Assembly: GCA_002690755.1 (NCBI GenBank)
Contig: NZFT01000083.1
Coordinates: forward strand, 1-10,973
Source: Phycisphaerae bacterium
GTDB taxonomy: Bacteria; Planctomycetota; Phycisphaerae; Phycisphaerales; SM1A02
Reading direction: 5' to 3'
DNA length: 10,973 nt
Part shown: positions 1 through 10,973 of the stretch, piece by piece
How the letters are laid out: the number at the start of each line of letters is the position of its first letter
How positions within the stretch are numbered: the first letter of the stretch is position 1
Translations under genes and position numbers: made by a program
The notes under the pieces: model-generated
What the model was told of the DNA's origin: nothing
Databases searched by the model: none
Seen by the model: the letters and a program-made list of their open reading frames with translations, nothing else

Positions 1-1563
1 GAACAGGGGCGGGACCTTTGGCTGCTGACCATCAACAACCCGGAGACCGGCGGCGACCGGTCGAAGCCCGGCATGTGGATCGACGGCAACGTCCACGGCA
101 ACGAGATCCAGGCGGCCGAGACCGTTCTCTACACCGCGTGGTACCTGCTCGAGGGGTACGACGAGGTCGAGGCGATTCGCAAACTGGTCGACGAGAACGC
201 CTTCTACCTCCTCCCGATGGTGAATCCCGACGGACGGGCGGGCTGGTTCCGCGATCCGGGGACGCCGCACTCCAACCGGACCGGCCTGCGGCCGACCGAC
301 AACGACTTCGACGGTCTGTTCGACGAGGACGGCCCCGACGATCTGAACGGCGACGGGTTCATCGGTCGCATGTGGCGGCGCGATCCGAATGGAACCCACA
401 AACGAAGCGAACGCGACCCGCGGATGTTCGAACGGGTTCCCGCGGTCCCCGGGCCGGACGGTCGGATCATGCGGGGACAGTGGTCGATGGCGGGCAGCGA
501 AGGCATCGACAACGATGGTGACGGCCGGATCAACGAGGACGGCCAGGGCGGGTACGACATGAACCGCAACTGGCCGAGCGACTGGCAGCCCAGTCACGTG
601 CAGCGCGGCGCGGGGACGCACCCGTTCAGCTATCCCGAGACGCGTTGCGTCGGCGACTTCATCCGGGCCCACCCCAACATCGCGGCGGGGCAGAGTTATC
701 ACAACACCGGTGGCATGATCCTGCGCGGCCCCGGCGCCGCCTACGAAACCGGAAACTATCCGCAGGCGGATCTGGCGGTCTACGACGCGCTCGGAAACGC
801 GGGCGAGGAGATGCTTCCGCACTATCGCTACATGGTGATTCACTCCGATCTCTATCCGGTCCACGGTGGATTCGTGAACTGGCTCGCCGAGGGACTCGGC
901 GTGATCTCGTTCACGAACGAACTCTGGACGGATCGCCGGATCCTGCAGGATGGTGGCCGCGGCCCGGGCGACGAGGAGGCGCGGATGCGCTGGGAGGACC
1001 GGGTCCTCTTCGGCCAGACCTTCAGCGACTGGACCGAGGTCGAGCATCCGGAGTACGGAACCGTCCTCGTCGGCGGTGGCGACAAGTGGTCGAGTCGCAC
1101 GCCGCCCCCCTTCATGCTGGAGGAGGAAGCGCACCGGAACTTCGCGTTTACCATGTTCCACGCGGCGGAGATGCCGAGGCTTCGGGGACACGACGTGGTT
1201 GTGAAGGATCTCGGGGGCGGCCTCTGGCAGGTCGACCTGGAGATCGCCAACGATGCGTTGATACCGTCCCGCACCCAGCACATGCGAGCGAAGGGGATCG
1301 GGCGTCCCGACATCCTGGTGTTCGAGCCTGCCGACGGCACGGAAATCCGACTCGCGGGGCCGGTCGCGAACCGGTTCGCCCCCACCTTCGAACCCGCGAA
1401 GCATCGACCGGAACGCCTGCTGGTGCAGGGTGGCGTTCCCGGCCGGGGCATCGCGACGTTCCGCTACGTGCTGGAGAGCGACGGTCCTCCCTCGGGCACG
1501 TTCGGCTATTCGGCCGAGAAGGCTTCGGACATCTCGATCCCCCTCGAGGTCGCCGCGGAATGA
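1..1563 (+). CDS. M14-family zinc carboxypeptidase-like metallopeptidase (5' partial)
   Basis: The frame is open at base 1, so the true start lies upstream; 520 residues are visible. Numbering from the window edge, VHGNE supplies the first zinc pair (H32, E35), NPDGR (75-79) and YDMNRNWP (185-192) are substrate-pocket motifs of M14 peptidases, GQSYHNTGG carries the third zinc ligand (H234), and FTNELW supplies the likely catalytic Glu (E307). Known M14 enzymes use Zn to cleave C-terminal or amide-linked residues from peptides. Two Asp/Gly-rich loops resembling EF-hand or dockerin calcium loops sit between motifs (about 100-120 and 170-181). The last ~130 residues look like a beta-rich accessory domain. 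A signal peptide would be expected but would lie outside the window. The family is clear; the substrate cannot be told. The stop codon overlaps a mini-frame leading into the next gene, which suggests co-transcription. Confidence 0.93.
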   Translation, partial: EQGRDLWLLTINNPETGGDRSKPGMWIDGNVHGNEIQAAETVLYTAWYLLEGYDEVEAIRKLVDENAFYLLPMVNPDGRAGWFRDPGTPHSNRTGLRPTDNDFDGLFDEDGPDDLNGDGFIGRMWRRDPNGTHKRSERDPRMFERVPAVPGPDGRIMRGQWSMAGSEGIDNDGDGRINEDGQGGYDMNRNWPSDWQPSHVQRGAGTHPFSYPETRCVGDFIRAHPNIAAGQSYHNTGGMILRGPGAAYETGNYPQADLAVYDALGNAGEEMLPHYRYMVIHSDLYPVHGGFVNWLAEGLGVISFTNELWTDRRILQDGGRGPGDEEARMRWEDRVLFGQTFSDWTEVEHPEYGTVLVGGGDKWSSRTPPPFMLEEEAHRNFAFTMFHAAEMPRLRGHDVVVKDLGGGLWQVDLEIANDALIPSRTQHMRAKGIGRPDILVFEPADGTEIRLAGPVANRFAPTFEPAKHRPERLLVQGGVPGRGIATFRYVLESDGPPSGTFGYSAEKASDISIPLEVAAE

Positions 1564-1592
1564 GCACGCCCCGCCGGATGACGCAACCGTGA
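1560..1592 (+). other. 10-codon mini-frame overlapping both flanking genes
   Basis: ATG at 1560 overlaps the peptidase stop (ATGA), and the frame MSTPRRMTQP ends at a TGA (1590-1592) overlapping the GTG start of the flavoprotein (GTGA). The spacing would let one ribosome terminate and restart twice, a translational-coupling arrangement. It could also be the remnant of a longer flavoprotein N-terminus lost to a one-base frame change. Only the geometry is seen; translation is inferred. Confidence 0.35.
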
Positions 1593-2860
1593 GCAGGGAG
1601 TCGGTCGACGTCCTCATCGTGGGTGCGGGTGCCGCGGGGCTCATGGCCGCGATCCATGCCGGTCGGGCGGCCGGTCCGGACACCCGGATCCTCGTCGTCG
1701 ACGGGGCGAGGAAGATCGGGGTGAAGATTCTCGTCGCGGGTGGTGGCCGCTGCAACGTCACCCACCACGAAGTCCGACCGGAGGACTACGGGGGGTCGAG
1801 TCGGAACGCGATCCGCAAGGTGCTTCGGGCCTACCCGGTCGACGAGGTGGTGGCGTTTTTCGCCGCCGAAGGCGTCGTTCTGAAGCGGGAGGAGACCGGC
1901 AAGCTCTTTCCCACCACCGACAAGGCGCAGACCGTCCTGGACGCCCTGCTCAACGCCGTCTCGAAGGCCGGCGTCGAACTTCGTCATCCGGTGCGGATCG
2001 AGTCGATCGAACGAGGCGAGGACGGATTCATCGTGTCGGGACTCGAATTCGAGGCGACGGCGCAGCGGGTGGTGCTCTGCACCGGCGGCAAGGCGCTGCC
2101 GAAATCCGGTTCCGACGGCGCCGGACTGGAGATCGCACGACGGCTCGGCCATTCCATCACCGATGCGGTCCATCCGGCCCTCGTTCCGCTCGTGCTCGCC
2201 GACGTCGATCCGATCCGTGAACTCGGTGGCATCGCCGCCCCCGTGACCTTGATGATTCGAGGCGGCAACGGTCGGGCGATCGCCGAATACACGGCCCCCC
2301 TGCTCTGCACGCACTTCGGAGTCTCCGGTCCGGTGGTCCTGGACGCCAGCCGGTACCTCCTCGCGGCCCGGGCCGCCGGAGACGACGCGATCGCGGTCGT
2401 GCGCTGGCTGCCCGACGTGGATCGCGATGAATTCGAACAGTCGATGCTCGGCGCCCCGGGTGGGGCGACGTGCCAATCGCTCCTGAAGGGGCGATTGCCG
2501 GATCGACTGCTCCGCATGCTGCTCCACGCCGCCGGGGTCGAGCCGGCGGATCGGGTGCGGGGGCTCGCGCGCGATCGCCGAAGATCGCTGCTCGACGTGC
2601 TCTTCGAACACCCGTTGGTCGTGGTGGGCGACCGGGGTTACACCTTCGCGGAAGCCACGGCCGGCGGGGTCCCGCTTTCCGAGATCAAACTCGATTCTAT
2701 GGAGTCGCGTCTGGTCGCGGGACTTCATCTCGCCGGTGAGATCTGCGACGTCGACGGACGCGTGGGCGGGTTCAATTTCCAATGGGCGTGGGCGAGTGGC
2801 CGGGTGGCCGGTGGTGCGGCGGCCTCGATCCACGAGGCCTCGATCCACGCCGCGTCGTGA
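1589..2860 (+). CDS. HI0933/BaiN-family NAD(P)/FAD-dependent oxidoreductase
   Basis: A 423-residue flavoprotein of about the usual family length. The FAD-binding Rossmann motif GAGAAG is at residues 12-17 and an acidic residue ends the second strand (D38). The family signature GGGRCNVTH follows at about 51-59. TGGKALPKSGSDGAG lies mid-protein, and GEICDVDGRVGGFNFQWAWA (from residue 383) is the C-terminal FAD-contact signature. Relatives include HI0933, E. coli YhiN and the bile-acid reductase BaiN; most members have no proven substrate, so none is assigned. The GTG at 1589 is chosen because the Rossmann strand starts within eight residues and a GGA lies 10 bases upstream; in-frame codons further up lie inside the peptidase gene. 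It overlaps the preceding mini-frame, so an operon with the peptidase is likely. The final residues come from a 15-bp tandem duplication. Confidence 0.93.
   Translation: MSRESVDVLIVGAGAAGLMAAIHAGRAAGPDTRILVVDGARKIGVKILVAGGGRCNVTHHEVRPEDYGGSSRNAIRKVLRAYPVDEVVAFFAAEGVVLKREETGKLFPTTDKAQTVLDALLNAVSKAGVELRHPVRIESIERGEDGFIVSGLEFEATAQRVVLCTGGKALPKSGSDGAGLEIARRLGHSITDAVHPALVPLVLADVDPIRELGGIAAPVTLMIRGGNGRAIAEYTAPLLCTHFGVSGPVVLDASRYLLAARAAGDDAIAVVRWLPDVDRDEFEQSMLGAPGGATCQSLLKGRLPDRLLRMLLHAAGVEPADRVRGLARDRRRSLLDVLFEHPLVVVGDRGYTFAEATAGGVPLSEIKLDSMESRLVAGLHLAGEICDVDGRVGGFNFQWAWASGRVAGGAAASIHEASIHAAS
2821..2850 (+). repeat. 15-bp tandem duplication at the flavoprotein C-terminus
   Basis: Two adjacent 15-base copies (2821-2835 and 2836-2850) match at 14 of 15 positions and encode ASIHE followed by ASIHA. 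The unit is in frame, so it only lengthens the C-terminal tail beyond the conserved FAD-contact motif. It looks like a recent slippage duplication. Confidence 0.85.
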
Positions 2861-2995: not shown

Positions 2996-5251
2996 TCATG
3001 CCGCGTTGGCGGTCGCGCCGGCTCGGGCGGCGTCGATGCCGGCCTGCCGTTCCCGTGCCAGCGAGCGTCGGAGTCGGATGGCGTTTCCAATCACCGAGAT
3101 GTCGCTGCACGCCATCGCCCCCGCCGCGATCAGCGGTCCGCTGGTGCCCAGGAGACCGAATGCGGCGGCGGGGATCGCGATGGAGTTGTAGAGGAAGGCG
3201 AGGAAGAGATTCTGTCGGATGGTTCGCAGCGTCCGACGGGCGAGGTGGATCGCGTCGGGGACGGAGGTGACCCGGTCCGGTGGCACCACCACGTCCGCCG
3301 CCTCGATGGCGGCGCCGGTTCCGCCGGCCATCGCGATGCCGAGGTCGGCGGCGGCGAGGGCCGCGGCGTCGTTGATGCCGTCCCCCACCATCGCGGTGCG
3401 CCGATCGCGTCCCGAGACGACTTCCAGTTTGGAGTCGGGGGTCGCTTCCGCGATGATCTCACCGTCGGCGAGCCCCACCATCCGGCCGATCCGACGCGCC
3501 GAGTCGGTCCGGTCCCCGGTGAGCATGCGGACGTCGATACCCATCGCGCGGAGACGGGTGATCGCCTCCGCGGCATCGTCGCGTGGCTCGTCATCGACGA
3601 AGAACCGCGCGACGGGGACGTCGTCGATTTCGACTCGACAGCTCGCGGCCTCGTCCCGAAGGACCCGGATCCGCCGTCCGTCGACGGTGGCGGTCACGCC
3701 TTCGCCGGGCGTCGCCTCGAAGTCCCGGGCGGCGGGAATCTCGATTCCTCGACGCCCGGCCTCCTCGAGGACCGCCCGGGCGATCGGATGCTCGCTTCCG
3801 GATTCGGCGGCCGCCGCGGCGGCCACGATGAACGTCTCGTCTCCGGTGGTCTCGACGAAGTCGATGCGGGTCACCCGGGGTCGACCGACCGTCAAGGTGC
3901 CGGTCTTGTCGAAGACGACCGCTTCGAGCCGGCCCGACGACTCGAGGCTCGCGGCGCTCTTGATGAGGATTCCACGCCGACTCGCCTCCCCCGCGCCGAC
4001 CATCACCGCCATCGGCGTGGCGAGCCCGAGGGCGCAGGGGCACGAGATGATCAGGACGGTCACTGTGCTGACCACCCCGGTGTTCCAGTCGCCCATGATG
4101 AACCCCCATCCGAACAGCGCGGCCGCCGCCACCGAAAGCACGGTGGGGACGAAGATCGAGGACACCCGGTCCGCGAGTCGCTGGATCGGGGCCTGGCTCG
4201 ACTGGGCGTTCTGAACGAGGTTCGCGATCCGCGCGACGGTCGTGTTGTGACCATCGACCGTGGCCTCGAGTTTGAGGAGTCCGTTTCCGTTCAAGGTGCC
4301 CGCGACCACCGGGTCCCCCGGGCCGCGCGGAACGGGCAGCGGCTCGCCGGTGACCAGTGATTCGTCGACCTCGCTCCGGCCCTCGAGCACGCTGGCGTCG
4401 ACGGGGATCCGACCGCCGGGACGTACCAGGTAGACGTCGCCGACGTTGATCCGGGAGCTCGGGACGTTCGTGGTTTCACCGGATTCGTCGACGCGTTCGG
4501 CGACTTCCGGCTGAAGTTCGAGCAGATCCCGCACCGCGGTACTCGCCCGCGCCGAGGCCTTGGCTTCGAGGAAATGGCCGAGGCTGATGACGCCGAGCAG
4601 GGCCGCGCTTTCCGCGAAGTAGAGTGGAAGGCTCGCCCATGTTCCCGGATCGGCGAGGGCTCGCTGCGCGGTGAAGACGATCAGGCTCCAGACGAACGCG
4701 GTCGTCGCCCCGATCGAGACCAGGGTGTCCATGTTGGTCCCGCCACGGCGGGCCGCCGTGAACGCGGATACGTAGAACCCGCCTCCGGCGACCACCAGCA
4801 CCAGCAGGCCGCCAAGCATCATGATCCAGGGGACCCATTCCGCGCCGTGGCCCACGGTCCAGTGGAGGATTTCGAGTGGAATCCAGACCCCGATCCCGAC
4901 GATCGCGCGACGCTTCCACATCCGAACGGTGCGGGCCTGGGAGAGCTCCATCCGGGAGCGGGTCTCCGCGAGGTCTTCCCGGACCTCCAGAAACTCGCCC
5001 TGGAACCCTCGAGATGCGATCACCTGCAGCGTCGGGTCGACCTCGAGCCGGCCCTCGACGACGGCAAGCCCGCTGGTGAAGTCCACGGTCGCCGACTCGA
5101 CCTCCGTCCGGCCCCGCAGGGCCGTTTGGAGCTCGCCGGCGCAGCCGGTGCAGTGCATGCCCTCGATTCGATAGCGGCGGGTGGCCGGCGGTTCGCTGGC
5201 AACGCCGTCTGAATCTGTATCGCGGTCCGGAGAGATCGACATCGGTTCCAT
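2996..5251 (-). CDS. P1B-type heavy-metal (Cu-like) translocating ATPase
   Basis: A 751-residue membrane pump that uses ATP to export soft metal ions, most like the Cu(I) exporter CopA. The order is: one N-terminal metal-binding domain with GMHCTGC (C34, C37); membrane helices from about 115; the actuator motif TGEP (301-304); CPC in the transport helix (404-406); the phosphorylation motif DKTGT (D448); the HP signature SEHP (486-489); GEGV; TGDRTD (579-584); and MVGDGIND (621-628). Cu-type residues Y688-N689 are present in TM7, but in TM8, where CopA proteins have MxxSS, this protein reads MACSD (M713, D717), so metal selectivity may be altered. The nucleotide-binding domain also seems short: the usual stretch after GEGV with a GN-LM motif is missing. 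ATG 5251 is used; an ATG at 5242, preceded by GGAACCG, is an alternative. It is transcribed divergently from the secA leader gene. Confidence 0.93.
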   Translation of the reverse strand: MEPMSISPDRDTDSDGVASEPPATRRYRIEGMHCTGCAGELQTALRGRTEVESATVDFTSGLAVVEGRLEVDPTLQVIASRGFQGEFLEVREDLAETRSRMELSQARTVRMWKRRAIVGIGVWIPLEILHWTVGHGAEWVPWIMMLGGLLVLVVAGGGFYVSAFTAARRGGTNMDTLVSIGATTAFVWSLIVFTAQRALADPGTWASLPLYFAESAALLGVISLGHFLEAKASARASTAVRDLLELQPEVAERVDESGETTNVPSSRINVGDVYLVRPGGRIPVDASVLEGRSEVDESLVTGEPLPVPRGPGDPVVAGTLNGNGLLKLEATVDGHNTTVARIANLVQNAQSSQAPIQRLADRVSSIFVPTVLSVAAAALFGWGFIMGDWNTGVVSTVTVLIISCPCALGLATPMAVMVGAGEASRRGILIKSAASLESSGRLEAVVFDKTGTLTVGRPRVTRIDFVETTGDETFIVAAAAAAESGSEHPIARAVLEEAGRRGIEIPAARDFEATPGEGVTATVDGRRIRVLRDEAASCRVEIDDVPVARFFVDDEPRDDAAEAITRLRAMGIDVRMLTGDRTDSARRIGRMVGLADGEIIAEATPDSKLEVVSGRDRRTAMVGDGINDAAALAAADLGIAMAGGTGAAIEAADVVVPPDRVTSVPDAIHLARRTLRTIRQNLFLAFLYNSIAIPAAAFGLLGTSGPLIAAGAMACSDISVIGNAIRLRRSLARERQAGIDAARAGATANAA

Positions 5252-5317
5252 GCTACGGAGTTCCGCGATTCAGGTTCGTTCTCTGGGGTACGAGGGGTCC
5301 GAGAGCCGATCTTCTCG

Positions 5318-5331
5318 TTGCAGGGATGCAA
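5318..5331. promoter_or_regulatory. Inverted repeat TTGCA-N4-TGCAA, possible operator
   Basis: Perfect 5-base half-sites spaced by GGGA, about 67-80 bases upstream of the ATPase start and about 19 bases upstream of the -35 of the leader promoter. The position suits a dimeric regulator acting on either promoter. It does not match the CueR or CopY operator patterns I know. A short palindrome can arise by chance. Confidence 0.25.
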
Positions 5332-5349
5332 TCCCCGGGTGGCGGCGTC

Positions 5350-5379
5350 TTGATTCATCACCCGGATCGCGGATACGCT
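5350..5379 (+). promoter_or_regulatory. Candidate sigma70-type promoter for the secA leader/secA unit
   Basis: TTGATT (5350-5355) and TACGCT (5374-5379) are separated by 18 bases and precede the leader ORF by about 50 bases. The -10 resembles the TACACT element upstream of tRNA-Lys in this same window, which supports a shared local consensus. No experimental start site is implied. Confidence 0.45.
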
Positions 5380-5431
5380 GCTCTATCTCACTCAGGAGTC
5401 CTCATCGGGACCTTCCAGGCGACTCGAACGC

Positions 5432-5773
5432 ATGAACGCCTCCGACCCTCAACCTCGCGACACGACCCCCGTCAGCGCCCTGGCGACCATGCTGGCCGCC
5501 GCCGTCGTGCTGTCCGTGGGCGTGGCGAGCGGCAGTCTCGGGGCCCTCGCACCCGCCGCCGCCGTCAACGCGGTGTTCATGGGCGGAATGCGCACCGTCG
5601 CGACGCCGGGAACCGTGCATCCGTCCCTTCGGACCGAGGCGCCCCGAAGTCGTTCGGTGCTCGCGGTCGCGAAGGCGGATCGTCGGATCGTGCCGGCCGG
5701 GGCCGCCCGGATCGCGATCGCCGGCCCCTCGGGGCCCGCCGCGTCGAACCTGCCACCGCCGCACGCGGGCTGA
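5432..5773 (+). CDS. 113-residue exported/membrane small protein upstream of secA, candidate arrest-peptide leader
   Basis: No family is recognised. Codon use is strongly G/C at third positions, like the neighbouring genes, which supports real coding. A hydrophobic Ala/Val/Leu stretch at about residues 17-45 looks like an uncleaved signal or signal peptide, although the short N-terminus is not positively charged. The middle is basic (several Arg/Lys, 67-86) and the end is Gly/Pro-rich: RIAIAGPSGP at 93-102, then PPP at 108-110 and only HAG before the stop. A short secreted ORF directly before secA, with an AGP motif and a terminal polyproline, parallels SecM-type stalling leaders, although SecM's critical Arg before AGP is Ile here. 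No strong Shine-Dalgarno precedes ATG 5432, so the start is uncertain. An ordinary small secreted protein remains possible. Confidence 0.6.
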   Translation: MNASDPQPRDTTPVSALATMLAAAVVLSVGVASGSLGALAPAAAVNAVFMGGMRTVATPGTVHPSLRTEAPRSRSVLAVAKADRRIVPAGAARIAIAGPSGPAASNLPPPHAG

Positions 5774-5928
5774 GTCCCCCGTCGTCCCATCCCGGACGAC
5801 GGCCGCCGGCTCCCTGCGTCTTCGTTTCAAATCACACCGACTCCATCCACGCCGGCCGTCTTCAGGCCAGGGCGTGTCTTGATCGACCGACGTTCCGTCG
5901 GGCGGTCGTTTCCCGAAAGGATCCCGTC
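5774..5928 (+). promoter_or_regulatory. Structured secA intercistronic leader with mutually exclusive helices
   Basis: Helix A is a perfect 9-bp stem (5779-5787 with 5794-5802, 6-base loop) starting 5 bases after the leader stop codon. Helix B pairs 5798-5805 with 5853-5860 (8 bp, perfect) and reuses part of the 3' arm of helix A, so the two cannot form together. A third hairpin (5884-5889 with 5903-5908, or 5887-5892 with 5896-5901) ends just before the secA Shine-Dalgarno. A ribosome at the end of the leader ORF would abut or melt helix A. Pairings were found by hand; no energies were calculated. No T-tract follows helix A, so a simple terminator is unlikely. Confidence 0.5.
5915..5921 (+). 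promoter_or_regulatory. secA ribosome binding site
   Basis: GAAAGGA sits 7 bases before ATG 5929. It decides the secA start and excludes the much longer upstream reading of the same frame (from 5326), which would run through the leader gene out of frame. Confidence 0.75.
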
Positions 5929-10110
<4,182 letters not shown>

Positions 10111-10553: not shown

Positions 10554-10661
10554 ATGCTCACCGAGGATCTCATCACCGTGGCCTGGACCACCGCCTGCAT
10601 CGCCGCGAGCCTCTACGCCTTCCATCGATGGAATGTCGGAGGCGTCTCACCGGACCACTGA
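10554..10661 (+). CDS. 35-residue single-span membrane miniprotein, function unknown
   Basis: The product begins MLTEDLITVAWTTACIAASL and ends in a short polar tail with HRWN and PDH. Residues about 6-22 are hydrophobic enough for one membrane span, with charged residues (E4, D5) before it and H24, R25 after it, which favours an N-out orientation. The strong Shine-Dalgarno and the in-frame stop support translation. The same frame is open further upstream to 10431, but that part shows no supporting start signal. No family is recognised. Three hairpins start about 50 bases after the stop and may end its transcript. Confidence 0.5.
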   Translation: MLTEDLITVAWTTACIAASLYAFHRWNVGGVSPDH

Positions 10662-10712
10662 CCCCCGTTCGACGGCCATTTTCAGGGAATTTGGAATCGA
10701 GAGAGAGAGCGC

Positions 10713-10795
10713 GTGCCCCCGGGCACGGGACACGACACGGCTTCCGGGCCGTGTCGTGTCGTTTCGGCCCTGAGAAGGCCGGGATCATGCCCGGC
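10713..10795. repeat. Cluster of three tight hairpins (possible T-poor terminator)
   Basis: Hairpin 1 is GTGCC/GGCAC (10713-10726). Hairpin 2 is a perfect 13-bp stem (10729-10741 with 10748-10760, loop TTCCGG), the longest perfect stem in the window. Hairpin 3 is GCCGGG/CCCGGC (10778-10795). Only GTTTC follows hairpin 2, so none is a textbook terminator. They separate the miniprotein from the next promoter and could block read-through or protect the 3' end of the mRNA. Confidence 0.6.
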
Positions 10796-10799
10796 GGAC

Positions 10800-10808
10800 T
10801 GCTAGAAT
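10800..10808 (+). promoter_or_regulatory. Extended -10 promoter of the right-edge gene
   Basis: TGC followed by TAGAAT (10803-10808) matches five of six consensus -10 bases plus the TGN extension. No -35 is evident 17 bases upstream, where hairpin 3 lies; extended -10 promoters can work without one. Transcription would start near 10815, just before the tandem repeat. Confidence 0.5.
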
Positions 10809-10820
10809 CCTCACGCGAAT

Positions 10821-10908
10821 CCGCAGCACCTCCGCAGCACCTCCGCAGCACCTCCGCAGCACCTCCGCAGTACCTCCGCAGTACCTCCGCAGTACCTCCG
10901 CAGTACCT
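10821..10908 (+). repeat. Eight-copy 11-bp tandem repeat
   Basis: Eight uninterrupted copies of an 11-base unit: four read CCGCAGCACCT, then four read CCGCAGTACCT. There are no spacers, so it is not a CRISPR array. The period is close to one DNA helical turn. It lies between the extended -10 promoter and the start codon at 10931, so it should be transcribed as 5' leader. Confidence 0.97.
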
Positions 10909-10930
10909 CGCCGACCGGAAATTCAGCGTC

Positions 10931-10973
10931 ATGCGTCATCTTCACGCCATTCTTGCCGCCGCCCTCCTCCCGT
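10931..10973 (+). CDS. Start of a putative secreted protein gene (3' partial)
   Basis: Only 14 codons are visible: MRHLHAILAAALLP. A positive N-terminus followed by an Ala/Leu run is what a signal peptide start looks like. A GGAA lies 10 bases upstream, a weak Shine-Dalgarno. The promoter-leader-ATG order supports a real gene, but the product cannot be named because the sequence ends here. Confidence 0.45.
   Translation, partial: MRHLHAILAAALLP

Follow-up and report, generated by a model that had tools for sequence, protein, structure and literature searches.

A candidate uA_LPPP arrest-peptide leader upstream of secA in a Phycisphaerae bacterium and its relatives

Our study identified, in a stretch of 10,973 nucleotides from a Phycisphaerae bacterium (contig NZFT01000083.1; hereafter the window), an upstream open reading frame (uORF) of 113 codons directly before secA, which, judging from its sequence and by analogy with characterized relatives, is highly likely to be an arrest-peptide leader of the uA_LPPP kind that tunes secA. 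What points to this reading is the genus-wide gene order and homology, the purifying selection on a C-terminal block of the encoded protein, and an XPPP tail close to the stop codon. Relative to the published class, the new elements are its generality among the relatives of the window, a consensus for its C-terminus, and a link between efp and secA.

The uORF (5432..5773, + strand, the same strand as secA) runs from an ATG at position 5432 to a TGA stop at 5771-5773, and 155 nt separate this stop from the secA ATG at 5929. Its designation as a putative secretion-monitoring arrest peptide draws on the list of open reading frames, on its place before secA and on coding selection. The 113-aa product reads MNASDPQPRDTTPVSALATMLAAAVVLSVGVASG...ARIAIAGPSGPAASNLPPPHAG; its C-terminus is AGPSGPAASNLPPPHAG, with the tail NLPPPHAG followed by the stop. 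By hydropathy and direct reading of the sequence, a signal- or transmembrane-like hydrophobic segment occupies approximately residues 17-32 (5480..5527, + strand) and is preceded by R9, and about 75 residues lie between this segment and the LPPP motif (L107-P110, located by motif search at 5750..5761, + strand). An earlier note, made from the sequence alone, had described a signal-like ORF of 113 residues just ahead of secA on the same strand, and both the coordinates and the homologues in the genus agree with that description; its two caveats, namely an Ile where SecM has an Arg and a weak Shine-Dalgarno (SD) sequence for the ORF itself, also agree with the sequence. The protein has no family match in Pfam or NCBIfam. 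The uORF is nevertheless a real gene, beyond chance: homologues are found before secA, and a profile of the protein matches 13 database proteins, some of them from the same genomes.

The downstream gene, secA (5929..10110, + strand; its 1393 aa are encoded at 5929-10107), was identified by Pfam and NCBIfam matches, and its ribosome-binding site (RBS; 5917..5931, + strand) consists of the SD element AAGGA at 5917-5921, a spacing of 7 and the start codon. Divergent from the uORF-secA unit lies a copper-type P-type ATPase gene with an HMA domain (2996-5251, minus strand; Pfam/NCBIfam), and further upstream the region 73-2860 (+ strand) has matches to an M14 zinc carboxypeptidase and to an HI0933-like flavoprotein (TIGR00275). 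Near the contig end, a repetitive stretch on the minus strand (10573-10932; translation EVLRRYCGGAAEVLRRCCGG...) contains the greatest C-over-G excess of the window (10808-10829).

The class to which we compare this uORF was described by Fujiwara et al. (2024, PMC10987492), who reported, under the name uA_LPPP, secA uORFs from the Planctomycetota orders Phycisphaerales, UBA1161 and WQYP01, a set characterized by LPPP within the last 15 residues and comprising 52 sequences, 45 of them with LPPP. According to the same report, in vitro arrest by a uA_LPPP homologue is complete on B. subtilis ribosomes (fAP 1) and modest on E. coli ribosomes (fAP 0.51), and its translation arrest index in vivo is 22.4 for the former species against 1.59 for the latter; changing L110, P111 or P111/P113 reduces the arrest, and toeprints show the P site occupied by codon three of LPPP (PMC10987492). 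The ORF of the window is likewise small, without a known family, directly before secA on the same strand, and carries LPPP in its last 15 residues; its C-terminus is conserved beside a diverse N-terminal part, and the spacer from the hydrophobic segment to the motif, longer than 30 residues in the class, is about 75 residues here. It is thus very probably a further member of the published class of secA leaders and a putative arrest peptide. By analogy, the stall would place P109 (5756-5758) in the P site and P110 (5759-5761) in the A site.

Conservation within the genus was examined by searching the uORF protein against 61 genomes, 8 of them from its genus. The uORF lies just before secA in seven of these eight; besides the genome of the window, they are one with 78% identity to the protein of the window (G002) and five with 45-51%. 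From the remaining genome (G004, 68% complete), neither the uORF nor secA was recovered. Outside the genus, whole-sequence matches among the 61 genomes were weak (best E 6.6e-4), and the strongest of them were not at secA. Substitutions were counted in three species pairs, matched by similarity. In the C-terminal block GPSGPAASNLPPP (residues 98-110; 5723..5761, + strand), which spans GPSGP to LPPP, the counts were 0 nonsynonymous and 17 synonymous changes, against 44 and 43 in the middle of the uORF (Fisher p 3e-5); the first 45 residues showed 22 and 31, and the final three residues 2 and 1. Since the block combines no nonsynonymous change with 17 synonymous ones, the conserved element is the peptide rather than the DNA, and it ends in LPPP. 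In a comparison of 14 sequences, the window included, G98-A103 and L107-P110 were invariant, and the two subgroups of the genus differed at residues 104-106. The expectation that the ORF and its C-terminus would be conserved in relatives is thereby borne out, with a constrained block standing beside a drifting middle.

To follow the leader beyond the genus, we used a set of 79 loci, namely the window and the best 80 of 190 SecA relatives, less two (L067 and L099) in which the start of secA or the DNA before it is missing. It is important to note that 53 of the 80 relatives carry titles such as Phycisphaerales or Phycisphaerae, that several loci are near-duplicates, and that eight frames are cut by the contig start (18 codons are left in L134 and 49 in L082). 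An open frame with an [LMIVT]PPP tail precedes secA in all 79 loci from the best 80 of 190 relatives; the tail is LPPP in 69, MPPP in 6, IPPP in 2, VPPP in 1 and TPPP in 1, and it is preceded by D in 35 loci and by N in 24. From PPP to the stop there are 1-5 residues in 77 of these 79 loci (2 residues in 30, 3 in 38, 4 in 6, 5 in 2, and 1, 7 and 11 once each), and GPSGP occurs in the tail of only 6. As a background, frames open for 80 codons or more at the same loci end in [LMIVT]PPP plus 1-5 residues in 2 of 3082 cases, and in [DN][LMI]PPP plus 1-5 residues in none of the 3082. The hydrophobic segment is also retained: a 15-mer with a mean hydropathy of at least 2.0 was found in 64 of 74 scorable uORF frames of the 79-locus set (best 80 of 190 relatives), against 4% of background open frames, which are mostly non-genes, and in that set the median distance from the end of the hydrophobic stretch to the motif is 75 residues and the minimum 43. 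An overlapping set of 30 whole-genome loci gave the XPPP tail in all 28 with usable upstream DNA (L037 and L049 have too little), including the variants QPPP (L048) and APPP (L058). These results indicate that, among the loci examined (best 80 of 190 relatives), a uA_LPPP leader is the norm rather than an exception, and they refine its consensus to mostly [D/N]-[L/M]-PPP, followed by 2-3 residues and the stop.

We also hand-picked 40 further loci of the class, 38 from 87 genomes that matched and 2 from the 61-genome search (L141-L170 were not scanned separately). Among these 40, an XPPP tail close to the stop was present in families f5 (3/3), f6 (2/2) and f11 (17/17; 16 LPPP and 1 QPPP), in 9 of the 14 usable loci of f9, and in none of the three loci of f14, f20 and f26. 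The other five f9 loci comprise two with LLAPP plus a few residues, one whose PPP lies 14 residues before the stop, and two without anything alike. By their sequence, the LLAPP tails are a drifted form of the leader motif: L186 has LLAPPP where L176 and L180 have LLAPP, a few residues before the stop, and this drift might represent a natural conversion of the arrest motif. In the sister families, no XPPP tail was found in 40 loci among the matches listed, with families f8, f12, f17, f19, f21 and f22 not included; this absence is not firm, because the secA start looks wrongly chosen in at least 8 of the 40. Searching the whole phylum with the N-terminal part of SecA lacked sensitivity beyond the class (29 of 199 genomes), and this search was left out of the results.

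In the mechanism that we propose, the N-terminal signal-like segment would direct the nascent chain to SecYEG/SecA, and at about 109 residues the LPPP motif in the peptidyl-transferase centre would halt elongation with P109 in the P site. Active export would pull the chain and free the stall, allowing the last proline, three more residues and the stop to be reached; slow export would leave a lasting stall and lead to more expression of the downstream secA. We infer that the peptide of the window arrests, is released by export and acts on secA in this manner. The spacing reported for secA-type monitoring substrates (PMC10987492) resembles the median of 75 in our set. Weighing against this reading are the EF-P encoded in the genome, since this factor relieves many PPP pauses; the modest in vitro and slight in vivo stalling of E. 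coli ribosomes by the homologue; the f9 family with only 9/14 tails near the stop; and the lack of a class-wide opening of the RBS. The earlier note had proposed a secretion-monitoring leader of secA related to SecM; the gist of that proposal stands, given a constrained C-terminus and a class that arrests ribosomes elsewhere (PMC10987492), and its attribution to the SecM family and motif does not.

The RNA around the stop codon and the secA start was analysed by folding. As the earlier note had pointed out, a perfect 9-bp hairpin (5779..5802, + strand; arms 5779-5787 and 5794-5802, 6-nt loop) begins 5 nt after the uORF stop, and the 42-nt window from the first base past the stop has a z of -3.1 relative to dinucleotide shuffles. 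At nine close loci the post-stop z ranges from -1.0 to -3.1, and the sequence of the hairpin is not conserved. In the 79-locus set (best 80 of 190 relatives), z falls below -2 just after the stop in 20% of loci, compared with 3-9% for windows starting 20-120 nt before the first base past the stop; this peak is not sharp, because other leader windows reach 14-18% of loci with z below -2. A search of Rfam gave no match in 5200-6100. We modelled the stall by masking the leader up to P-site +16, with ensemble folding at the 79 loci. A ribosome stalled at LPPP in the window would have the post-stop hairpin in front of it, and the hairpin remains folded in the masked model. Over the 79 loci (best 80 of 190 relatives), masking changes the mean RBS accessibility from 0.486 to 0.494, against 0.475 to 0.482 in the swapped-RBS control; it raises accessibility in 38 loci and lowers or leaves it in 41, with no gain on stalling relative to controls (RBS p 0.83, SD p 0.97). 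Pairing between the footprint and the RBS has a mean of 0.088 in the same 79 loci, against 0.055 for swapped RBSs (MWU p 0.007) and 0.040 for shuffles, the latter rank difference not being significant (p 0.47); it exceeds 0.25 in 12 of the 79 loci (best 80 of 190 relatives), against 8.4% of swapped-RBS controls, and is 0.02 in the window. With a small pairing excess and no accessibility gain, an anti-SD role of the PPP codons is thus poorly supported and would hold at best for a subset of loci. The secA start region is, if anything, less folded than shuffles. A conserved SD-masking switch thus finds no support in the folding, in which RBS accessibility does not rise beyond controls over the 79 leaders (best 80 of 190 relatives).

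These results bear on the alternative explanations of the leader. The proposal that it is a true SecM relative, arresting at a GIRAGP-like AGP and opening an SD-masking hairpin, could appeal to the AGP in the window, to the hairpin after the stop and to the slight rise in accessibility, from 0.44 to 0.51, that masking brings to the RBS of the window. Despite that rise, the claim that a stalled ribosome opens the secA SD found no support in the folding, since only 38 of 79 loci gain and the RBS is not freed in general. As a motif, AGP was tried and discarded: it is present in only 2 of the 79 leaders (best 80 of 190 relatives), its A is replaced by S or D and the residue before it varies within the genus group, and what persists near the stop is LPPP. 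Of the two C-terminal elements expected to be kept, PPP is thus retained (79/79) and AGP is not; together with the lack of a Pfam or NCBIfam match, this makes kinship with SecM barely credible. The same arrest peptide might instead act on transcription, with the ribosome at LPPP keeping Rho off a C-rich stretch so that the polymerase reads into secA, as in TnaC. From the uORF to the secA RBS the sequence is C-rich and G-poor, with a rut-like composition (5774..5906, + strand), and the best 78-nt C-over-G stretch there starts at 5776, at the 99.65th percentile of the window. Among the 79 loci (best 80 of 190 relatives), C exceeds G in 67 post-stop leaders (mean C 0.345, G 0.260), against 51 uORFs and 39 of the first 600 nt of secA, and 10 efp-secA gaps of sister families have C 0.210 and G 0.213 (p 7e-4 against the leaders), although this control set is small and its source DNA much less GC-rich. 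The closeness of the motif to the stop (77/79, best 80 of 190 relatives) and an RBS that is on average not sequestered would fit such a role; untranslated leaders here may, however, be C-rich for other reasons, and a ribosome at LPPP reaches only to about the stop codon, so that we hold protection from Rho to be possible but doubtful. It is very improbable that the uORF simply encodes some small membrane or exported protein, with a PPP tail unrelated to secA regulation: it does look like a small signal-bearing protein, matches no known family and shows some N-terminal constraint (the 22 nonsynonymous and 31 synonymous changes given above), but its middle drifts, and across families little persists apart from the XPPP tail and the position directly ahead of secA.

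The relation of the leader to EF-P deserves special attention. The own genome of the window encodes EF-P (one match above the cut-off, at G000:C78; 59 of 61 genomes have a match), so the stall must operate with EF-P present; a second EF-P match in this genome, rated 5.94% contaminated, lies below the family cut-off (G000:C125:16809-17369) and may be either a paralogue or a contaminant. Among the matches listed, 19 of 43 sister-family loci without a detected leader have efp at most about 410 nt upstream of secA and in the same orientation (L207, L208, L224, L225, L227, L228, L234, L236, L239, L240, L250, L251, L252, L254, L255, L256, L258, L259 and L260). By family, again among the matches listed, the counts are f10 2/2, f13 1/1, f18 2/2, f20 5/9, f23 4/6, f24 4/5 and f26 1/1, with 0 of 17 loci in f7, f14, f15, f16 and f25. 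In 117 stretches of the LPPP clade (0.3 to 9.5 kb, f9 and f11 included), EF-P was found once, convergent and downstream of secA; this arrangement is seen in G058 and L100. Among the publication titles listed on EF-P and secA and on arrest peptides of planctomycetes, none concerned an efp-secA neighbourhood. The presence of efp beside secA in sister families implies that the two genes share a history, and, with a motif that is itself PPP, it lends some weight to the idea that the leader senses EF-P, that is, polyproline translation capacity, besides or in place of export; the suggestion by Fujiwara et al. that missing EF-P accounts for the uA_LPPP stall on E. coli ribosomes in vitro (PMC10987492) points the same way. 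We nevertheless regard such sensing as unlikely, considering that the signal-like segment and its spacing, needless for an EF-P sensor, are kept, that arrest by two RAPP peptides is reported to be refractory to EF-P (PMC12992588), and that the stalling by uA_LPPP is strong in living B. subtilis cells (PMC10987492). More speculative, and decidedly improbable, is a scenario in which, in this class of bacteria, a PPP-arrest leader took over the control of secA from co-transcription with efp and acts as a two-input gate, where export force would free the stall and EF-P supply would set its strength.

If such a gate were true, SecA output would follow both translocation and polyproline translation capacity. 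The efp-secA neighbourhood of the sister families offers a direct way to test whether EF-P and the control of secA are linked. For the export-monitoring leader that we favour, the natural variants MPPP, QPPP, RPPP and LLAPP provide material on what turns plain polyproline into a signal for regulated arrest in cells with EF-P.

Several known systems can be compared with this leader. In TnaC, a ribosome stalled beside the stop codon keeps Rho off, in response to tryptophan; a ribosome stalled by the stop could similarly shield the C-rich stretch of the window leader, whose peptide, however, is longer, bears a signal-like segment and does not involve tryptophan sensing. In the RQH family (ApdA, ApdP, ApcA, RAPP-like), too, sec/yidC uORFs carry an arrest motif with proline close to their C-terminus, and the ribosome stops when codon three of the motif occupies the P site, whereas the R/Q/H-A/G/D-P/G/S-P/G motif of this family is absent from the last 15 residues of the uORF of the window. 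The arrest site of E. coli SecM lies a few codons before its stop, as the putative one of the uORF does. Both SecM and the uORF are secA leaders, SecM with a secretion signal and the uORF with a signal-like segment, and the release by export known for SecM is what we propose here; the uORF differs in having LPPP, without GIRAGP, FxxxxWI or any W, and the folding of its leader class gives no sign of an SD-masking hairpin opened by the stall. The closest resemblance is to uA_LPPP, with which the uORF shares its nature as a small secA uORF of Planctomycetota, an N-terminus that is signal-like by hydropathy, LPPP in the last 15 residues and a diverse N-terminal part. The genus of the window adds a fixed GPSGPA stretch ahead of [N/D]LPPP; otherwise the two appear to be of the same kind, and by analogy the peptide of the window would arrest in the same way.
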